Of a stretch of 41,787 bases of DNA, positions 15,410 to 41,478 are shown one piece after another (the first letter of the stretch is position 1; each line of letters opens with the position of its first letter). A model generated the notes under the pieces. That model made no database searches and was not told where the DNA came from. It saw nothing but the letters and a program-made list of their open reading frames with translations. The stretch is from the NCBI GenBank assembly GCA_007376485.1, contig VMGJ01000001.1:1-41787 (forward strand), written 5' to 3'. The position numbers were made by a program, and so were the translations under genes. The stretch is from Parcubacteria group bacterium Licking1014_17 (GTDB lineage: Bacteria; Patescibacteriota; Minisyncoccia; 2-02-FULL-40-12; IGHO2-01-FULL-4-A).

Positions 15410-15618
15410 CTCGCCAACTCTTTTTCGGAACTGGAAATTGATTGTGGGAATATATCTTTTCGCAGATGTTCGGGCTTTCCGGCGAAGCCCTCACTTATAC
15501 CTCGCCAGTTTTCCGCTAGTATAGCGGACCAAGCAAAACTGGCTCGCTGTACTGCTCAAAGACACATTTCCACAATGAAAAAGCGGTAATCTCAATAACC
15601 CTCAAAAGAGCCGGCTCG
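15410..15618 (+). repeat. Palindromic intergenic repeat, copy A
   Basis: The gap 15363-15712 has no gene; it holds the rpsT promoter, this repeat and the promoter of the next gene. The element starts CTCGCCAACTCTTTTTC and ends AAAAGAGCCGGCTCG, giving a partly decayed terminal stem. Inside are the stem TGTGGGAATATATCTTTT with CAAAGACACATTTCCACA, the hairpin GGGCTTTCCGGCGAAGCCC, and AGTTTT/AAAACT enclosing an apical hairpin TCCGC-TAGTATA-GCGGA. The overall order is the same as in copies B, C and E. Confidence 0.85.
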
Positions 15619-19520: not shown

Positions 19521-19712
19521 CGAGCCGACTCTTTTGAGGGCTATTGAGATTGCCGCCTTTTCAATTGGGGAATATGTCTTTGAGCAGTACACTGAGCCAG
19601 TTTTGCTTGGTCTCCCCACCGGCGCGCCGGTGGGGGAAAACTGGCGAAGTATAAGCGCAGGTTTTCGCTGGAAAAACCGGAGCATCTGCGAAAAGATATA
19701 TTTCCGCAATTG
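19521..19712 (-). repeat. Palindromic intergenic repeat, copy B (inverted)
   Basis: Read on the minus strand this matches copies A, C and E. Its apical hairpin is CCCCACCGG/CCGGTGGGG and its second hairpin GGTTTT/AAAACC, both paired although the bases differ from copies A and C. The terminus next to 19521 (CGAGCCGACTCTTTTGAGGG on the plus strand) is intact. The opposite terminal stem is missing, and the repeat stops two or three bases after the uvrB stop codon (19715-19717). It fills the gap between the convergent protease-like gene and uvrB. Confidence 0.85.
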
Positions 19713-19714
19713 GT

Positions 19715-21742
19715 TTATTTATCTATTCGCTTCTTCAGTTCCAGTATCTGATTTCTTATTACTAAAGCTTCTTCAAAGCGGAGGTCTTTTATGGCTCGGT
19801 TCATAAGTTTCGTGAGCCATTCAACGCGCTGGCTGGGGGTAAGGTGCTTTTCGGCTTCAGCGTCGGTGGGGTCGTAACTATACCAGCGGCTTATTTTTTC
19901 TTTAGAGGTGGACGATGGCAGGTCGGATTTTTTGATTTCTTTTTCGATTGAGGCCGGCGTTGTGCCGTGTTTCTTGTTGTATTCTTCCTGGACTCCCCGG
20001 CGTCTTTCCGTTTCTTTAATAGCGGTGTCCATTGAGCCGGTAATTTTATCGGCATACATAATAACATGGCCGTTGATGTGGCGCGCGGCCCTGCCCATGG
20101 TTTGAATCAGTGTGGTTGTATTGCGCAAAAAACCTTCCTTGTCGGCATCCAAAATGGCAACCAAAGAAACTTCCGGCAAATCTAGCCCTTCGCGCAGAAG
20201 ATTAACGCCGACAATAACGTCGTAGTTTCCCAGCCGCAGGTCGTGAATTATTTCAATTCTTTCCAAAGTTTTTACGTCCGAGTGGATGTAATTTACTTTT
20301 ATGCCCTGTTCGGAGAGATATTCGGTAAGGTCTTCCGCCATGCGTTTGGTCAGTGTCGTGACAAGCACGCGCTCATTTTTGGCAAGCCGTTTTTTGATTT
20401 CCCCGAGCAGGTGCTCAATCTGGTTTTCCGTCGGCTGGATTTCAATTGTCGGGTCCAGAAGTCCCGTCGGCCGCACCAACTGTTCGGCAATGCCGCCGGA
20501 GCCAGATTTTCTCAATTCAAACGGTTTTGGCGTCGCCGACATATATATAGTTTGCCGGATTCTTTTTTCAAATTCGCCGAAAGTCAACGGGCGGTTGTCC
20601 AGAGCCGACGGCAGGCGGAAACCGTATTCAATCAATTTCCCCTTGCGCGACAAATCGCCGCGGCGCATGCCGCCAATTTGGGGAATTGTAAGATGGGACT
20701 CGTCTATTATAGCCAGGAAATCGCCTTTTTCCCTGAAGTAATCAATCAGGGTGTACGGCGGTTTGCCGGGTTTGCGGAATTCGAGATGGTGGGAGTAATT
20801 TTCGATGCCGTGGCAATAACCCATGCGCTTTATCATTTCGATGTCGCTTTCGGTGCGGTCGCGCAGCCGTTCAGCTTCAATAACCAGTCCCTGCTTTTTA
20901 AGGCGAACAAGATGTTTTTGAAGTTCGGCGCGGATATTGACAATCGCCAAATCAATTTTGTCATCCACCGGAACCCAATATTTCGCCGGGAAAATTTCAA
21001 CCTCCAGCACTTTTTCATACGCCGGTTCTTTGTAAACGACGGTTTCCAAATCTATTTTATCGGCAACCAATATTTTCTCTATTTTCTGGCTTTGCGCCGA
21101 ATTGCCCGCCAAAACTATTTTAATTATCTTGTCGCCGGTAACAGCGGCTATTTCAAATTCGTTTCGGGTTTTGCGGAACGCGCCCCGTTTCAGTTCCAAG
21201 TCCTGGTTATACTGCAGTCGCTTCATGTTCTCCCTTATTTTTTCGGCGGATATTTTTTGCCCGGTGAACAGATTAAGGCGCAAATCACGGTAATTTTCGG
21301 GCGAACCTAAATTATAGATGCAGGAAACCGAAGCCACCACAATAACATCCTTGCGGCTGATAAGAGCTTCGGTCGCGGCGTGGCGTAACCGGTCGATTTC
21401 TTCGTTAATCTTCGCGTCCTTTTCAATATAGGTGTCGGTTTCCGGAATATAAGCCTCGGGCTGGTAATAATCATAGTAGCTTACGAAATAATGAACCGAG
21501 TTTTGGGGGAAATAATCTTTGAATTCCTGATAAAGCTGGGCGGCGAGGGTTTTATTGTGGGAAATAATAAGAGTCGGTTTGTTTATTTTCGCAATAACGC
21601 TGGCAATGGTAAAAGTTTTTCCGGAACCCGTTACGCCTATGAGGGTCTGATATCTTTTGCGCGCCTTCAACCCACGCTCAAGTTTAGCCGCGGCTTCGGC
21701 TTGATGGTCGGTAAGTTTAAATTTTGATTTAAGGTGAAACAT
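19715..21742 (-). CDS. uvrB: Excinuclease ABC subunit B
   Basis: UvrB verifies DNA damage after UvrA loading and recruits UvrC for incision. The 675-residue product has Walker A GVTGSGKT (about 38-45) and the beta-hairpin region YYDYYQPEAYIP (about 91-102). Later come the helicase motifs DESHLT, YMSATP and QTMGRAARH, and a C-terminal UVR domain (IKDLRFEEALVIRNQI) that binds UvrC. It is full length. A TATGCT box (minus strand, 21749-21754) lies six bases before the ATG, with no good -35. Copy B of the repeat abuts its 3' end. Confidence 0.97.
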   Translation of the reverse strand: MFHLKSKFKLTDHQAEAAAKLERGLKARKRYQTLIGVTGSGKTFTIASVIAKINKPTLIISHNKTLAAQLYQEFKDYFPQNSVHYFVSYYDYYQPEAYIPETDTYIEKDAKINEEIDRLRHAATEALISRKDVIVVASVSCIYNLGSPENYRDLRLNLFTGQKISAEKIRENMKRLQYNQDLELKRGAFRKTRNEFEIAAVTGDKIIKIVLAGNSAQSQKIEKILVADKIDLETVVYKEPAYEKVLEVEIFPAKYWVPVDDKIDLAIVNIRAELQKHLVRLKKQGLVIEAERLRDRTESDIEMIKRMGYCHGIENYSHHLEFRKPGKPPYTLIDYFREKGDFLAIIDESHLTIPQIGGMRRGDLSRKGKLIEYGFRLPSALDNRPLTFGEFEKRIRQTIYMSATPKPFELRKSGSGGIAEQLVRPTGLLDPTIEIQPTENQIEHLLGEIKKRLAKNERVLVTTLTKRMAEDLTEYLSEQGIKVNYIHSDVKTLERIEIIHDLRLGNYDVIVGVNLLREGLDLPEVSLVAILDADKEGFLRNTTTLIQTMGRAARHINGHVIMYADKITGSMDTAIKETERRRGVQEEYNKKHGTTPASIEKEIKKSDLPSSTSKEKISRWYSYDPTDAEAEKHLTPSQRVEWLTKLMNRAIKDLRFEEALVIRNQILELKKRIDK

Positions 21743-32713: not shown

Positions 32714-32925
32714 CTCGCCAACTCTTTTTCGGGACTGAAGCTATCTGGGGAATATGTCTTTTCGCAGATGTTCGGGCTTTCCAGCGAAGCCCTCACTTAT
32801 ACCTTGCCAGTTTTCCCGCACCATATCGGTGCGAGACCGAGCAAAACTGGCTCGCTGTACTGCTCAAAGACATATTCCTACAATAAAAAGACGGCAATCT
32901 TAATAGCCCGAAAAGAGTTGGCGAG
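32714..32925 (+). repeat. Palindromic intergenic repeat, copy C (most complete)
   Basis: The 212-bp element has a terminal stem of about 19 bp: CTCGCCAACTCTTTTTCGGG (32714-32733) with CCCGAAAAGAGTTGGCGAG (32907-32925). The second stem is GGAATATGTCTTTT (32749-32762) with CAAAGACATATTCC (32865-32878). Inside are a side hairpin GGGCTT/AAGCCC (32774-32792) and a stem GCCAGTTTT (32806-32814) with AAAACTGGC (32843-32851), capped by CGCACC/GGTGCG (32817-32833). It fills most of the gap 32699-32994. Confidence 0.9.
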
Positions 32926-37645: not shown

Positions 37646-37678
37646 CCCGGCTGAAATATGCCGGGTTTAAAATTTTTA
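37646..37678 (+). terminator. Intrinsic terminator
   Basis: CCCGGC (37646-37651) pairs with GCCGGG (37660-37665), followed by TTTAAAATTTTT. It ends the 36612-37625 transcript. The preceding bases CAATAGCCCG resemble the terminal motif of the palindromic repeats. Confidence 0.75.
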
Positions 37679-37680
37679 AT

Positions 37681-37708
37681 TTGCTATCCTCCTTTAACTT
37701 GTTATATT
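37681..37708 (+). promoter_or_regulatory. Promoter of the holB-like gene, leaderless arrangement
   Basis: TTGCTA (37681-37686) and TATATT (37703-37708) are 16 bp apart. The -10 box is six bases from the ATG at 37715, predicting a transcript that starts at the start codon. Confidence 0.5.
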
Positions 37709-37714
37709 TCTCTT

Positions 37715-38575
37715 ATGTGGCGGACGCTGGGGTTTGATAGGGAAAAGGAATTTTTTGAAAGAGCCATGAAGAACGGCGATGTTAAGCACGCATATCTTTT
37801 TACCGGGCAGGATATGATAGGCAAAAGGACTTTCGCTTTGGAACTGGTTGACAAGCTTGTCGGAGCGGGTACAAAAAACGAAGCCACCAGTCAATTTGAT
37901 ATTTTATTCATAGATTCTTCAAGTTCAGAAAGCGGACAGACAATCACAATTGACGCGGTGAAAGAAATAAAAAACCGGCTTTCAATGACCGCCTATTCCG
38001 GGGGATACAAGTGCTGTATTATCAACGACGCCCACCGGATGACGGATGAAGCCCAGAACGCCCTGCTGAAAATTTTGGAGGAGCCGAACGAGAAAGTGGT
38101 GATTTTTCTGGTGGCTTCAAAACCCGATTTGTTGAAGCCGACAATCAAGTCGCGCTGCGAAGAGATATATTTCGCGCCGCACGGCAGAAAAATTCTGGAT
38201 AAGCTTCTTTCCGGTGAAAAATTATCGGAAAATCAGAAGGAATTCGTGGCGGAGTTTTGCGGCGGGAGAGTCGGACTTCTGAAAAATATAATTGAAAAAT
38301 CTTCTTACAAAGAAATAAAAACCGCCATTGAAGAGCTGTCGCGCCTTGAGAAAGCCGATATCGGCGAAAGATTCTTGGAGGCGCTGAAAATGTTGGGCGA
38401 GGGCGATGAAAAGTTGCTGGAGAAACTGCTTTACTGGATGCTTTATTTGAGAAGCAAGATGGACAATAAAAAATATGCGGGCGTTTTGGAACGACTACAG
38501 GATCTTTACGTAGCCATTAGCAAGCCGTCCACTAACAAGCGGTTCGCTTTGGAGAACTTTTTACTACATTTGTAA
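37715..38575 (+). CDS. holB: DNA polymerase III delta-prime-like clamp loader subunit
   Basis: The clamp loader opens the sliding clamp at replication forks. The 286-residue protein shows HAYLFTGQDMIGKRT, a degenerate P-loop, near residue 24. It then has RMTDEAQNALLKILEEP and the SRC motif in KPTIKSRCEEIYF (about 145-157), as in delta-prime and gamma/tau N-domains. The zinc cysteines of gamma/tau are missing, supporting delta-prime. The start ATG 37715 fits the family; an in-frame ATG at 37658 lies inside the upstream terminator and is rejected. Confidence 0.85.
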   Translation: MWRTLGFDREKEFFERAMKNGDVKHAYLFTGQDMIGKRTFALELVDKLVGAGTKNEATSQFDILFIDSSSSESGQTITIDAVKEIKNRLSMTAYSGGYKCCIINDAHRMTDEAQNALLKILEEPNEKVVIFLVASKPDLLKPTIKSRCEEIYFAPHGRKILDKLLSGEKLSENQKEFVAEFCGGRVGLLKNIIEKSSYKEIKTAIEELSRLEKADIGERFLEALKMLGEGDEKLLEKLLYWMLYLRSKMDNKKYAGVLERLQDLYVAISKPSTNKRFALENFLLHL

Positions 38576-38628: not shown

Positions 38629-38770
38629 CTCACCTATACGCTTTTCGGGACTGAAATTCCCCCAGCGTGGGAATTTCATCTGTGAGATTGCCGCCCTTTG
38701 TCAAGGCATAAAGCCGTTGACAAAACCATGCTGGCGGCAATCTCAATAGCCCTCAAAGCGTATCGGTGAG
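38629..38770 (+). repeat. Palindromic intergenic repeat, variant copy D
   Basis: The 142-bp element has terminal stem CTCACCTATACGCTTT (38629-38644) with AAAGCGTATCGGTGAG (38755-38770), one mismatch. The stem sequence differs from copies A and C but pairing is kept. Next to the ends are the shared motifs TTCGGGACTGAA and AATCTCAATAGCCC. Inside are hairpin GAAATTCCC/GGGAATTTC and a 13-bp stem TGAGATTGCCGCC/GGCGGCAATCTCA with TTGTCAA/TTGACAA inside it. It ends 11 bases before the frr start codon. Confidence 0.85.
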
Positions 38771-38781
38771 AATTAATAAAA

Positions 38782-39339
38782 TTGCTTAAACAATTATTTC
38801 AGCAAAAGAAAGACGAATTCAATAAAGTGTTTGATTTTTACAAGGGGGATATTTCTTCCATAAGGACGGGTAGAGCGTCTCCGGCTTTGGTTGAAGATAT
38901 AACGGTTGAGTTTTACGGCAGTAAAATGAAAATCAAGGAGCTTGCCAATATATCGGCTCCGGAACCGAAAACCCTGACAATCCAGCCGTGGGATAAAAAC
39001 GCGGTTGAACCGATTTGCGGGGCGATAAAAAACAGCAATATCGGACTGAATCCCGCGGTTGACGGCCACGCAATCCGGCTTAATATTCCGCCCCTGACCG
39101 AGGAACGGCGCAAAGATTTTATTAAATTATTGAAGCAGAAGACCGAAGAGGCGCGCATAAAAATCAGGAGGGCGAGAGAGGACGCGCTGAATAAAATACA
39201 GCGGATGGAAAAAGACGGCGAAATAAGCGAGGACGAAAGATTTGACGCCAAAGAAGAACTGCAGAAAATTGTTGACGATATCAACAAAAAAATAGAGGAA
39301 ACTGAAAAGAAAAAAGAACAGGAACTGATGACGGCGTAG
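38782..39339 (+). CDS. frr: Ribosome recycling factor
   Basis: RRF with EF-G splits post-termination ribosomes. The 185-residue protein has the family segment ISSIRTGRASPALVEDITVEFYG (in pieces about 25-47) and NIPPLTEERRKDFIKLLKQ. The long C-terminal helices of domain I rich in Lys/Glu are also present. The start is TTG at 38782, placed by alignment with the family's usual N-terminus; no Shine-Dalgarno is visible. The repeat copy D lies immediately upstream, so the frr leader is largely repeat-derived or starts just after it. Confidence 0.95.
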   Translation: MLKQLFQQKKDEFNKVFDFYKGDISSIRTGRASPALVEDITVEFYGSKMKIKELANISAPEPKTLTIQPWDKNAVEPICGAIKNSNIGLNPAVDGHAIRLNIPPLTEERRKDFIKLLKQKTEEARIKIRRAREDALNKIQRMEKDGEISEDERFDAKEELQKIVDDINKKIEETEKKKEQELMTA

Positions 39340-39349
39340 AACCATGCTC

Positions 39350-39520
39350 TAGTCGCGTGCCGCCCTAAATCACCATTCGCCCGCCCAGCGAGCGGGCTCA
39401 TTCAGGTTAGACCTCAAATTTCGCTCGCAAGCTCGCGAACCATGCAATTTGAGGTCTAAACAGTGCTTTAAGGCGGCAACGCGACTATAAACGCCGTTAA
39501 TCTCAACAGCCCGAAAAGGC
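39350..39520 (+). repeat. Palindromic intergenic repeat, variant copy F
   Basis: Stem TAGTCGCGTGCCGCC (39350-39364) pairs with GGCGGCAACGCGACTA (39472-39487). Inside are hairpin GCCCGC/GCGGGC and stem TTAGACCTCAAATT/AATTTGAGGTCTAA capped by TTCGC/GCGAA. The right tail AATCTCAACAGCCCGAAAAGG (39499-39519) matches the shared terminal motif of copies C and D. It starts 10 bases after the frr stop. With the promoter at 39553 it accounts for the gap 39340-39635. Confidence 0.75.
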
Positions 39521-40185: not shown

Positions 40186-41259
40186 ATGCTGACAGTTATT
40201 ATTTTCATAATCGTTCTGGGGGTTTTGGTTTTTGTCCATGAGTTTGGGCATTTTATTACTGCCAAACGCGCCGGGATGAAAGTGGAAGAATTCGGATTCG
40301 GGTTTCCGCCGCGGATTTTTGGCGTTAAAAAAGGCGAAACACTCTATTCAATTAATTGGATACCCTTGGGAGGTTTTGTGAAGATATTCGGCGAAGGCGA
40401 TCCCGAGCTGAAAGAATCCAGAAGCTTTTACGCGGGCACGAAACTTAACCGCTCGGTGGTTGTCGTTGCCGGCGTTGTAATGAACGTCATTTTGGCTTTT
40501 ATTTTATTATCCCTGGTTAATTTTATCGGAGTCCGCAAAGGCATTGATAACGTAGCCGCCGCCAAGGATGTTTCGATAGAAATAGTAACCGTGGCTCTAA
40601 ACAGTCCCGCGAGCGCCGCTGGTCTGATGGATATGGATGAAATTCTGGGATTTAAAGAAAACGGTTCAAGCATAAAAATCCCGACATTGGAAAGCGTGCA
40701 GAAATATATAAAATCGCACGGCGGCAGTGAGATTACCATGGTAATCAAACGTGACGGCGAAATTTTGGATAAAAAAATCACGCCGCGGGTAAATCCGCCG
40801 TCGGGCGAAGGAGCGACCGGCATTGTCCTCGTACAGGTTGGAACGGTAAAATATTCTCTCGGTAAATCAATAATAGAAGGGGTAAGGGAAACCGGTCTGA
40901 CTTACTATTACACCGCGGTGGGCTACGCCACGGTGATTAAAAATGTTTTTGTCACCGGCAAGCCGGGTGTTGAGCTGACCGGGCCCGTCGGCATCGCCGT
41001 TTATACGGGAAAAGTCGCCCGCATGGGTTTTGTTTATCTTCTGCAGTTCATGGCGCTCATTTCAATAAATCTGGCGGTTCTTAATATAATTCCGTTTCCG
41101 GTTTTTGACGGCGGGAAATTGCTGTTCATTATAGTAGAAGCCCTTAGAAAAAAGCCGCTTCCGCGGAAAGTGGAATACGGTATCAATGCCGTCGGTTTTG
41201 TATTAATATTGGTATTGATGGTTTACGTAACCACCAAAGACATATTCAAGTTTTTCTAA
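40186..41259 (+). CDS. rseP: Site-2-type zinc metalloprotease RseP (M50)
   Basis: M50 proteases cut membrane proteins within the bilayer, for example anti-sigma factors or leftover signal peptides. The 357-residue protein has HEFGHF (about 18-23) in the first helix and a PDZ domain (about 110-205) with SPASAAGLMDMDEI. The C-terminal NIIPFPVFDGG (about 302-312) supplies the third zinc ligand. The length is normal for one-PDZ members. In this genome possible partners include the SPP-like protease at 25014. Repeat E separates it from proS. Confidence 0.94.
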   Translation: MLTVIIFIIVLGVLVFVHEFGHFITAKRAGMKVEEFGFGFPPRIFGVKKGETLYSINWIPLGGFVKIFGEGDPELKESRSFYAGTKLNRSVVVVAGVVMNVILAFILLSLVNFIGVRKGIDNVAAAKDVSIEIVTVALNSPASAAGLMDMDEILGFKENGSSIKIPTLESVQKYIKSHGGSEITMVIKRDGEILDKKITPRVNPPSGEGATGIVLVQVGTVKYSLGKSIIEGVRETGLTYYYTAVGYATVIKNVFVTGKPGVELTGPVGIAVYTGKVARMGFVYLLQFMALISINLAVLNIIPFPVFDGGKLLFIIVEALRKKPLPRKVEYGINAVGFVLILVLMVYVTTKDIFKFF

Positions 41260-41296: not shown

Positions 41297-41478
41297 CTCG
41301 CCAACTCTTCTTCGGGACTGAATCTATTGTGGGAGTGTATCTTTTCGCAGATGCTCCGGTTTTTCCAGCGAAAACCTCCGCTTATAGCTTGCCAAGTTTT
41401 CTCCCTTCGGGAGGCCAAGCAAAACCTGGCTCGCTGTACTGCTCAAAGACACATTCCCACGATAAAAAGGTAACAATT
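41297..41478 (+). repeat. Palindromic intergenic repeat, copy E (right end missing)
   Basis: The left terminus CTCGCCAACTCTTCTTCGGG matches copies A and C. The stem TATTGTGGGAGTGTATCTTTT pairs with AAAGACACATTCCCACGATA, the side hairpin is GGTTTT/AAAACC, and the apical hairpin is CTCCC-TTCG-GGAG. The right terminal stem is lost after GGTAACAATTTA, 15 bases before the proS start. The preceding bases CACTG are shared with copy C. Confidence 0.88.

Follow-up and report, generated by a model that had tools for sequence, protein, structure and literature searches.

A widespread family of three-branched palindromic elements in ultra-small bacteria, with covariation that points to DNA rather than RNA

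Organization of the elements in the window

The window, by which we mean the whole 41,787-nt stretch of DNA analysed here, lies on the 188-kb contig C11 of the genome of Parcubacteria group bacterium Licking1014_17. It contains six copies of a palindromic element at E <= 3e-9 with a covariance model (R2, see below), none of them inside a gene (0/6; Table 1). Four of these, A, B, C and E, had been delineated as intergenic repeats in the original prediction, and on re-reading both their boundaries and the sequences of their apical and side hairpins hold. The remaining two belong to two further subfamilies, such that at least three subfamilies are found side by side in this genome. With the intact subfamily-2 copy as the reference, the presumed outer stem of A, C and E is seen to be the remnant of a subfamily-2 element that encloses a nested subfamily-1 element. 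A nested pair is also observed in another genome (L194, G024:C20:63001-75000, positions 2050-2290), where an element with arms CGCAAGAGATTATTACC is embedded in what is left of a GACTATACCC-type element, the outer arms of which extend to the upstream stop codon. Just past the end of the window lies a perfect inverted repeat (22 bp, 28-nt loop; G000:C11:42747-42818) that lacks the element core.

Table 1. Copies of the element in the window and anatomy of copy C. The UvrB-like and ribosome-recycling-factor-like genes are named from sequence.
Feature	Position	Strand	Description
Copy A	15410..15618	+	Subfamily-1 core 15445-15572, nested within subfamily-2 remnants
Copy B	19521..19712	-	Core 19567-19706; directly 3' of gene 19715-21742 (- strand; UvrB-like)
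Copy C	32714..32925	+	Three-branched fold with outer and inner arms
C, outer 5' arm CTCGCCAACTCTTTT	32714..32728	+	End of subfamily-2 element; pairs with 32911-32925
C, inner 5' arm GGAATATGTCTTT	32749..32761	+	Pairs with 32866-32878
C, GCAG	32764..32767	+	Pairs with CTGC 32860-32863, past TC/TC internal loop
C, side hairpin GGGCTT / AAGCCC	32774..32792	+	Conserved loop TCCAGCG 32780-32786
C, inner stem GCCAGTTTT / AAAACTGGC	32806..32851	+	Strands 32806-32814 / 32843-32851
C, apical hairpin CGCACC / GGTGCG	32817..32833	+	Differs in almost all copies
C, 3' bulge ACCGAGC	32836..32842	+	Conserved; consensus ACCAAGC or ACCATGC
C, inner 3' arm AAAGACATATTCC	32866..32878	+	Partner of 32749-32761
C, outer 3' arm AAAAGAGTTGGCGAG	32911..32925	+	Partner of 32714-32728
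Intact subfamily-2 copy	38630..38769	+	Between ORFs 37658-38575 and 38782-39339; E 2.4e-10; DNA fold z -10.5
Subfamily-3 copy	39353..39484	+	Directly 3' of ORF 38782-39339 (ribosome-recycling-factor-like); E 2.7e-9 (R2); DNA fold z -7.3
Copy E	41297..41478	+	Core 41330-41459; between ORF 40186-41259 (RseP-like) and a ProS-like ORF

Copy C folds far more stably than its shuffled counterparts, whether as RNA (-89.6 kcal/mol versus -54.6 +- 4.4; z -8.05), as DNA (-50.3; z -8.07) or when the opposite strand is considered (z -7.9). From the outside inwards, the layout common to the family comprises the inverted arms, an internal loop (TC/TC in the source genome), the short GCAG/CTGC stem and the side hairpin, past which come a spacer, the inner stem, the freely variable apical hairpin, the 3' bulge and the return strand. 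Two unpaired motifs are conserved: the loop of the side hairpin (TCCAGCG, in some copies TCCTGCG), which has the form CCNGCG in 74 of 76 diverse copies, and the 3' bulge (ACCAAGC, also ACCATGC and ACCGTGC), which has the form CCNWGC in 70 of them. The three-way-junction core spans about 100-150 nt and the whole element 120-190 nt. The arms are paired over 13-23 bp in 25/27 copies of the source genome even though their sequence differs from copy to copy, with a single transversion mismatch in 440 positions (counted without a model). In one copy (L028, G000:C11:155537-155690) the side hairpin is enlarged by an extra GC-rich palindrome (AGCCCGCTTCGCCGTAGGCTCCAGCGAGGCG).

Distribution in the genome, the class and the phylum

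DNA BLAST points to about 30 copies in the 790-kb source genome, and a covariance model of 26 copies (R1) recovers 29, two of which are divergent. The second model, R2, which was made with R1 matches from several genomes, finds 24 copies on C11; along with two more spotted by eye among long inverted repeats, this gives at least 26 on this largest contig. When C11 was shuffled in 500-base blocks, no inverted-repeat locus remained at the threshold that yields 28 in the real contig. Of the 70 intergenic gaps on C11 that measure 100 nt or more, 23 are occupied by the elements. The high density first noted in the window, with its six copies, extends to at least 29 confident copies in the genome. 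A divergent copy (L085, G000:C8:23874-24022) lies between two tRNA genes (Cys and Leu).

A DNA BLAST search of 57 relatives with the core recovered matches in the source genome only, and covariance models were accordingly required to trace the family further. Using R1, we found it in 13 other genomes of the order, belonging to four families, with E-values down to 1e-12. With R2, matches were obtained in 98 of 384 genomes of the class and, less frequently, in 19 of 380 genomes sampled from the phylum, of which four are in the same class. Copy numbers in the class and phylum are lower bounds, as only the best 8 candidates per genome were scored and some genomes reach 8. Most of the scanned genomes have no R2 match and serve as a negative control. 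A Rugosibacter contig (L180), the one match in a scan of named genomes for the exact pattern, was rejected as a chance hit, being inside a coding gene and without a model match; a scan of viral sequences gave none.

The elements have no matches to Rfam 15 families at the gathering score or up to an E-value of 10, and the literature examined on palindromic repeats in Patescibacteria yields no relevant named element, in agreement with the original prediction. The family is real, widespread and apparently undescribed. It looks like a main repeat family of a large group of ultra-small bacteria.

Covariation and the scarcity of G-U pairs

As originally proposed, the copies form a family in which stems and loops keep the same order throughout and the stems covary. 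Within the source genome, 17 pairs display double changes (81 cells versus 29 +- 4 in shuffles), while across the 76 diverse copies double compensatory changes are seen in 40/40 pairs (1231 cells versus 357 +- 17). In the latter set 92% of the cells pair, a figure biased upwards by the fitting of the alignments to the model structure; the nulls are shuffles (51%) and partners slid along the alignment (at most 46%).

The original prediction took such compensatory changes as direct evidence that the folded form matters, either as RNA or as single-stranded DNA during transposition. This inference is not supported in that form: compensatory change alone does not prove that the fold is under selection, and the mismatches bear the signature of a DNA-level palindrome. 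Among 2468 stem cells from the 76 copies, 2305 are Watson-Crick, 26 G-U, 65 A-C and 72 other; counted as distinct events, i.e. once per genome and column, there are 24 G-U versus 58 A-C (p 2e-4). In the control stems of tRNAs from the same loci (n=252), there are 241 Watson-Crick pairs, 9 G-U, 0 A-C and 2 other. Thus, G-U is tolerated less than A-C in the stems of the element, the opposite of what is expected of an RNA stem on the mRNA strand, and the RNA reading is weakened by this difference from tRNA stems. Of the two options, single-stranded DNA during transposition fits better. The bottom strand folds slightly more strongly as single-stranded DNA in 5/5 window copies; the preference for this strand draws on the mismatch asymmetry and on this DNA folding, which are not mutually independent.

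Template switching during replication can restore palindromes without selection on RNA: at quasipalindromes a single step re-establishes perfect pairing, and hairpins can also arise in this way (PMC8794818, PMC7202029). Covariation therefore need not mean RNA selection here. The evidence that the fold is important is instead the conservation of the unpaired motifs together with its persistence across families of the class. These motifs require some constraint, for example a protein recognising the fold. The family provides a clear natural example of covariation, usually read as proof of RNA structure, that comes with a DNA signature of almost no G-U; RNA discovery pipelines should take heed of it, and template switching can be tested on it.

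Position and orientation relative to genes and replication

The nearest gene on the 5' side within 150 nt of the 76 diverse copies is co-directional in 51 cases and opposite in 11 (binomial p 1.4e-7, treating the copies as independent), and the arm often starts 3-25 nt past the stop codon. In the source genome 23/27 copies follow the direction of the upstream gene, or 24/27 if a shorter co-directional ORF upstream of one exception (L025) is counted. The upstream genes read as housekeeping genes. Some copies are located between divergent genes or antisense to their neighbours. On C11, the sign of the GC skew flips near 145 kb, and the strand of the elements switches with it: 21/24 copies follow the leading strand and 18/24 the upstream gene, with five of the discordant copies following replication against the gene and two the reverse. 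Since both fit the copies on C11, the replication strand and the gene strand are inseparable as the cause of the orientation.

The bias towards the strand of the upstream gene and the proximity to stop codons, combined with strong covariation, conserved unpaired motifs and the occupation of one spacer by different subfamilies (see below), favour a structured RNA in the 3' untranslated region or between the genes of operons, which protects, processes or terminates the mRNA and whose covariation reflects RNA selection. We consider this unlikely, albeit deserving of some weight. Beyond the near absence of G-U on the mRNA strand, it is at odds with the copies between divergent genes or antisense to neighbours, with the recurrence of near-identical cores in unrelated arms beside unrelated genes, and with an orientation on C11 that fits replication at least as well as the upstream gene. 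An intrinsic terminator was likewise rejected, as a U-tract follows the stem in 13/76 copies versus 8/76 on the opposite side. The same-strand bias, the abutment to stop codons and the sharing of a spacer by subfamilies could also mean a role at transcript 3' ends, and such a 3'-UTR role, alone or besides mobility, is possible.

Evidence for mobile cores in site-specific arms

Comparison of two genomes of one genus (G010 and G013), in which the genes and segments of syntenic blocks are mostly 72-87% identical, revealed cores with 97-98% identity at non-orthologous sites beside unrelated genes, a sign of recent movement. The first such core (97.4% identical) has the arms ATATCGGGCTTGGAG... at one site and GCAGATACAGTC... 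at the other: the G013 copy L115 is held in the arms ATATCGGGCTTGGAGATT..., and the matching G010 core in GCAGATACAGTC...; a second core (96.7-98.4% identical) is found in three different arms, and in a third pair (97% identical) the G010 flanks are AATAAAATTAG / CTAATTTTATT. In each case the sequence breaks abruptly at the border between core and arm, and each set of arms is self-complementary. As near-identical cores sit in unrelated but self-complementary arms, the moving unit is the core, whereas the arms are either native to the insertion site or generated there.

The copies also differ in presence between relatives. The L115 copy is absent from the syntenic spacer of G010, which has no R2 match (L169) and contains another hairpin-like sequence. 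Three more syntenic spacers are occupied by an element in both genomes, though by different subfamilies, with the same orientation in two and the opposite in one; in the first of these, R2 missed the G010 copy, which nonetheless shares 97% identity over 158 nt with a G013 copy recovered by the model. In another genus, a copy in G024 corresponds in G038 to a pair of abutting stop codons without a palindrome, the site differing also by more than 1 kb of other DNA. Each spacer compared in G010/G013 and in G024/G035/G038/G044 differs beyond the element, with no clean empty site among them. Nevertheless, the presence and absence of copies between relatives is genuine.

These observations bear on the proposal that the elements are old palindromes kept paired solely by template switching in replication, their cores being spread by ordinary gene conversion with neither dedicated movement nor function. 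The near-perfect pairing, the compensatory changes and the paucity of intermediates are as this predicts (PMC8794818, PMC7202029), and the swapping of cores at shared spacers agrees with it too. Yet near-identical cores at unrelated sites and in unrelated arms leave no flanking homology for conversion, and the unpaired motifs are conserved across the class. We regard this explanation as very improbable.

Comparison with known palindromic and mobile elements

The element resembles the REP/REPIN sequences and their RAYT (Y1 tyrosine) transposases in that these are short, non-coding, intergenic palindromes, present in many copies, often beside stop codons, in bacteria that frequently carry Y1 transposases (PMC3733652, PMC2817692, PMC3116915, PMC6006769). 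A REP/REPIN-like family moved by RAYTs would accommodate the palindromes near stop codons and a strand pattern that agrees with the use of single-stranded DNA, and Y1_Tnp ORFs, mostly of 207-283 aa and with a CLMPNHxH-type motif, are indeed present in 10/17 carrier genomes. In contrast to REP/REPIN with their hairpins of 20-40 bp, the element joins arms to a three-way-junction core (about 100-150 nt), has almost no G-T pairs, and surrounds the same core with differing arms. It also lacks the GTAG/CGTC tag: GT[AG]G occurs in 3 and 1 of the 76 copies (about 3.5 expected) and CGTC in 0. Seven of the 17 carrier genomes, including the source genome (99.75% complete), have no Y1_Tnp match, and no transposase is linked to the element. 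Where Y1 loci are present (20 in the carrier genomes), they are without flanking elements save for one weak match (E 0.003). We accordingly deem this relationship improbable. In many carrier genomes there are several different RAYT-like Y1 ORFs, mostly 207-283 aa in length and with a CLMPNHYHLLL-type motif, that have no copy of this element at their flanks (loci L236-L255 in G010, G013, G024, G320, G155 and G264).

Other kinds of element were also considered. For an IS200/IS605-derived MITE, the Y1 transposase is missing from the source genome, although its loss after spreading is possible. In the case of DDE-type MITEs, the arms of the element are only partly shared by members of a subfamily, copies whose cores are near-identical have different arms, and no direct target duplication is evident by eye in the seven pairs compared. 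ERIC and similar enterobacterial repeats are imperfect palindromes of roughly 130 nt in transcribed intergenic regions, whose arms are common to the copies. By this description they are set apart from the present element, with its copy-specific arms. The repetitive hairpin-forming elements of mitochondria (PMC2800124) are comparable as small, mobile, gene-less, intergenic hairpin DNA. The double-hairpin elements (DHE) of mitochondria are of the same sort. From both, the present family differs in its bacterial chromosomal setting, larger three-branched core, two conserved unpaired motifs and core/arm modularity. Finally, the integron attC sites share long variable stems with little sequence conservation, a location 3' of a co-directional gene and probable folding of the bottom strand (PMC2727003). 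Unlike them, the element lies beside housekeeping genes rather than cassettes, has its conserved motifs in loops, and is without the R'' (RYYYAAC) and R' (GTTRRRY) boxes, which are found in the arms of 0/76 copies (shuffled mean 0.13).

Origin of the arms and a possible mechanism

Taking these lines together, we think it probable, if by no wide measure, that copy C is a member of a dispersed, non-coding, mobile family of single-stranded DNA hairpins, in which the core moves and the arms are renewed at each site. The arms could come about in either of two ways: the core enters a pre-existing palindrome, or the arms are made on insertion. Terminators and the elements themselves aside, the 188 kb of C11 hold only a few long palindromes, which makes a large pool of empty palindromic targets unlikely. 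Pre-existing terminators as the source of the arms were rejected in view of the missing U-tract and the AT-rich arms. In 13 of 133 copies the 5' arm runs into the upstream ORF, and in 2 the 3' arm runs into the downstream one, a pattern consistent with copying from the 5' flank. The 5' arm AGCTTGTAGTTGGCATATTG at G010:C7:64562, for instance, spans the final two codons of the upstream ORF together with its stop. Such an overlap is not always evidence of a native 5' arm, as in G320 the stop codon of the upstream ORF is contributed by the arm. Thus, the arms are probably made anew by fold-back copying, a model that is for now plausible rather than demonstrated.

The active form is probably DNA folded as a single strand, and of the two strands more likely the one complementary to the upstream mRNA, because it is on this strand that wobble-type mismatches are tolerated. 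Under the fold-back model, a core that inserts in its folded form would have its 3' end extended by copying the 5' flank, through fold-back synthesis or a template switch, which would give rise to the inverted arms; later template switches would keep these paired. New cores might often land in, or replace, older copies, resulting in nests and in turnover within one spacer. The enzyme involved may be a trans-acting protein or the host replication itself.

More tentatively, the family may represent a new mode of DNA mobility, in which a gene-less single-stranded hairpin core inserts behind genes and builds its stem by reverse-copying the adjacent host sequence. As part of the same tentative reading, this would amount to an inverted rather than a direct target duplication, leaving arms private to each copy yet perfectly paired. 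If the modularity of cores and arms does stem from fold-back copying at insertion, DNA would here be moving in a manner not yet described, and the near-identical cores in different arms make fold-back copying directly testable.

A single orthologous pair of copies was seen (L040 and L041; G010:C2:110025 and G013:C10:13942). Its arms are alike in both genomes, and the neighbouring ORFs read, by their sequence, as the ribosomal proteins L10 and L7/L12.
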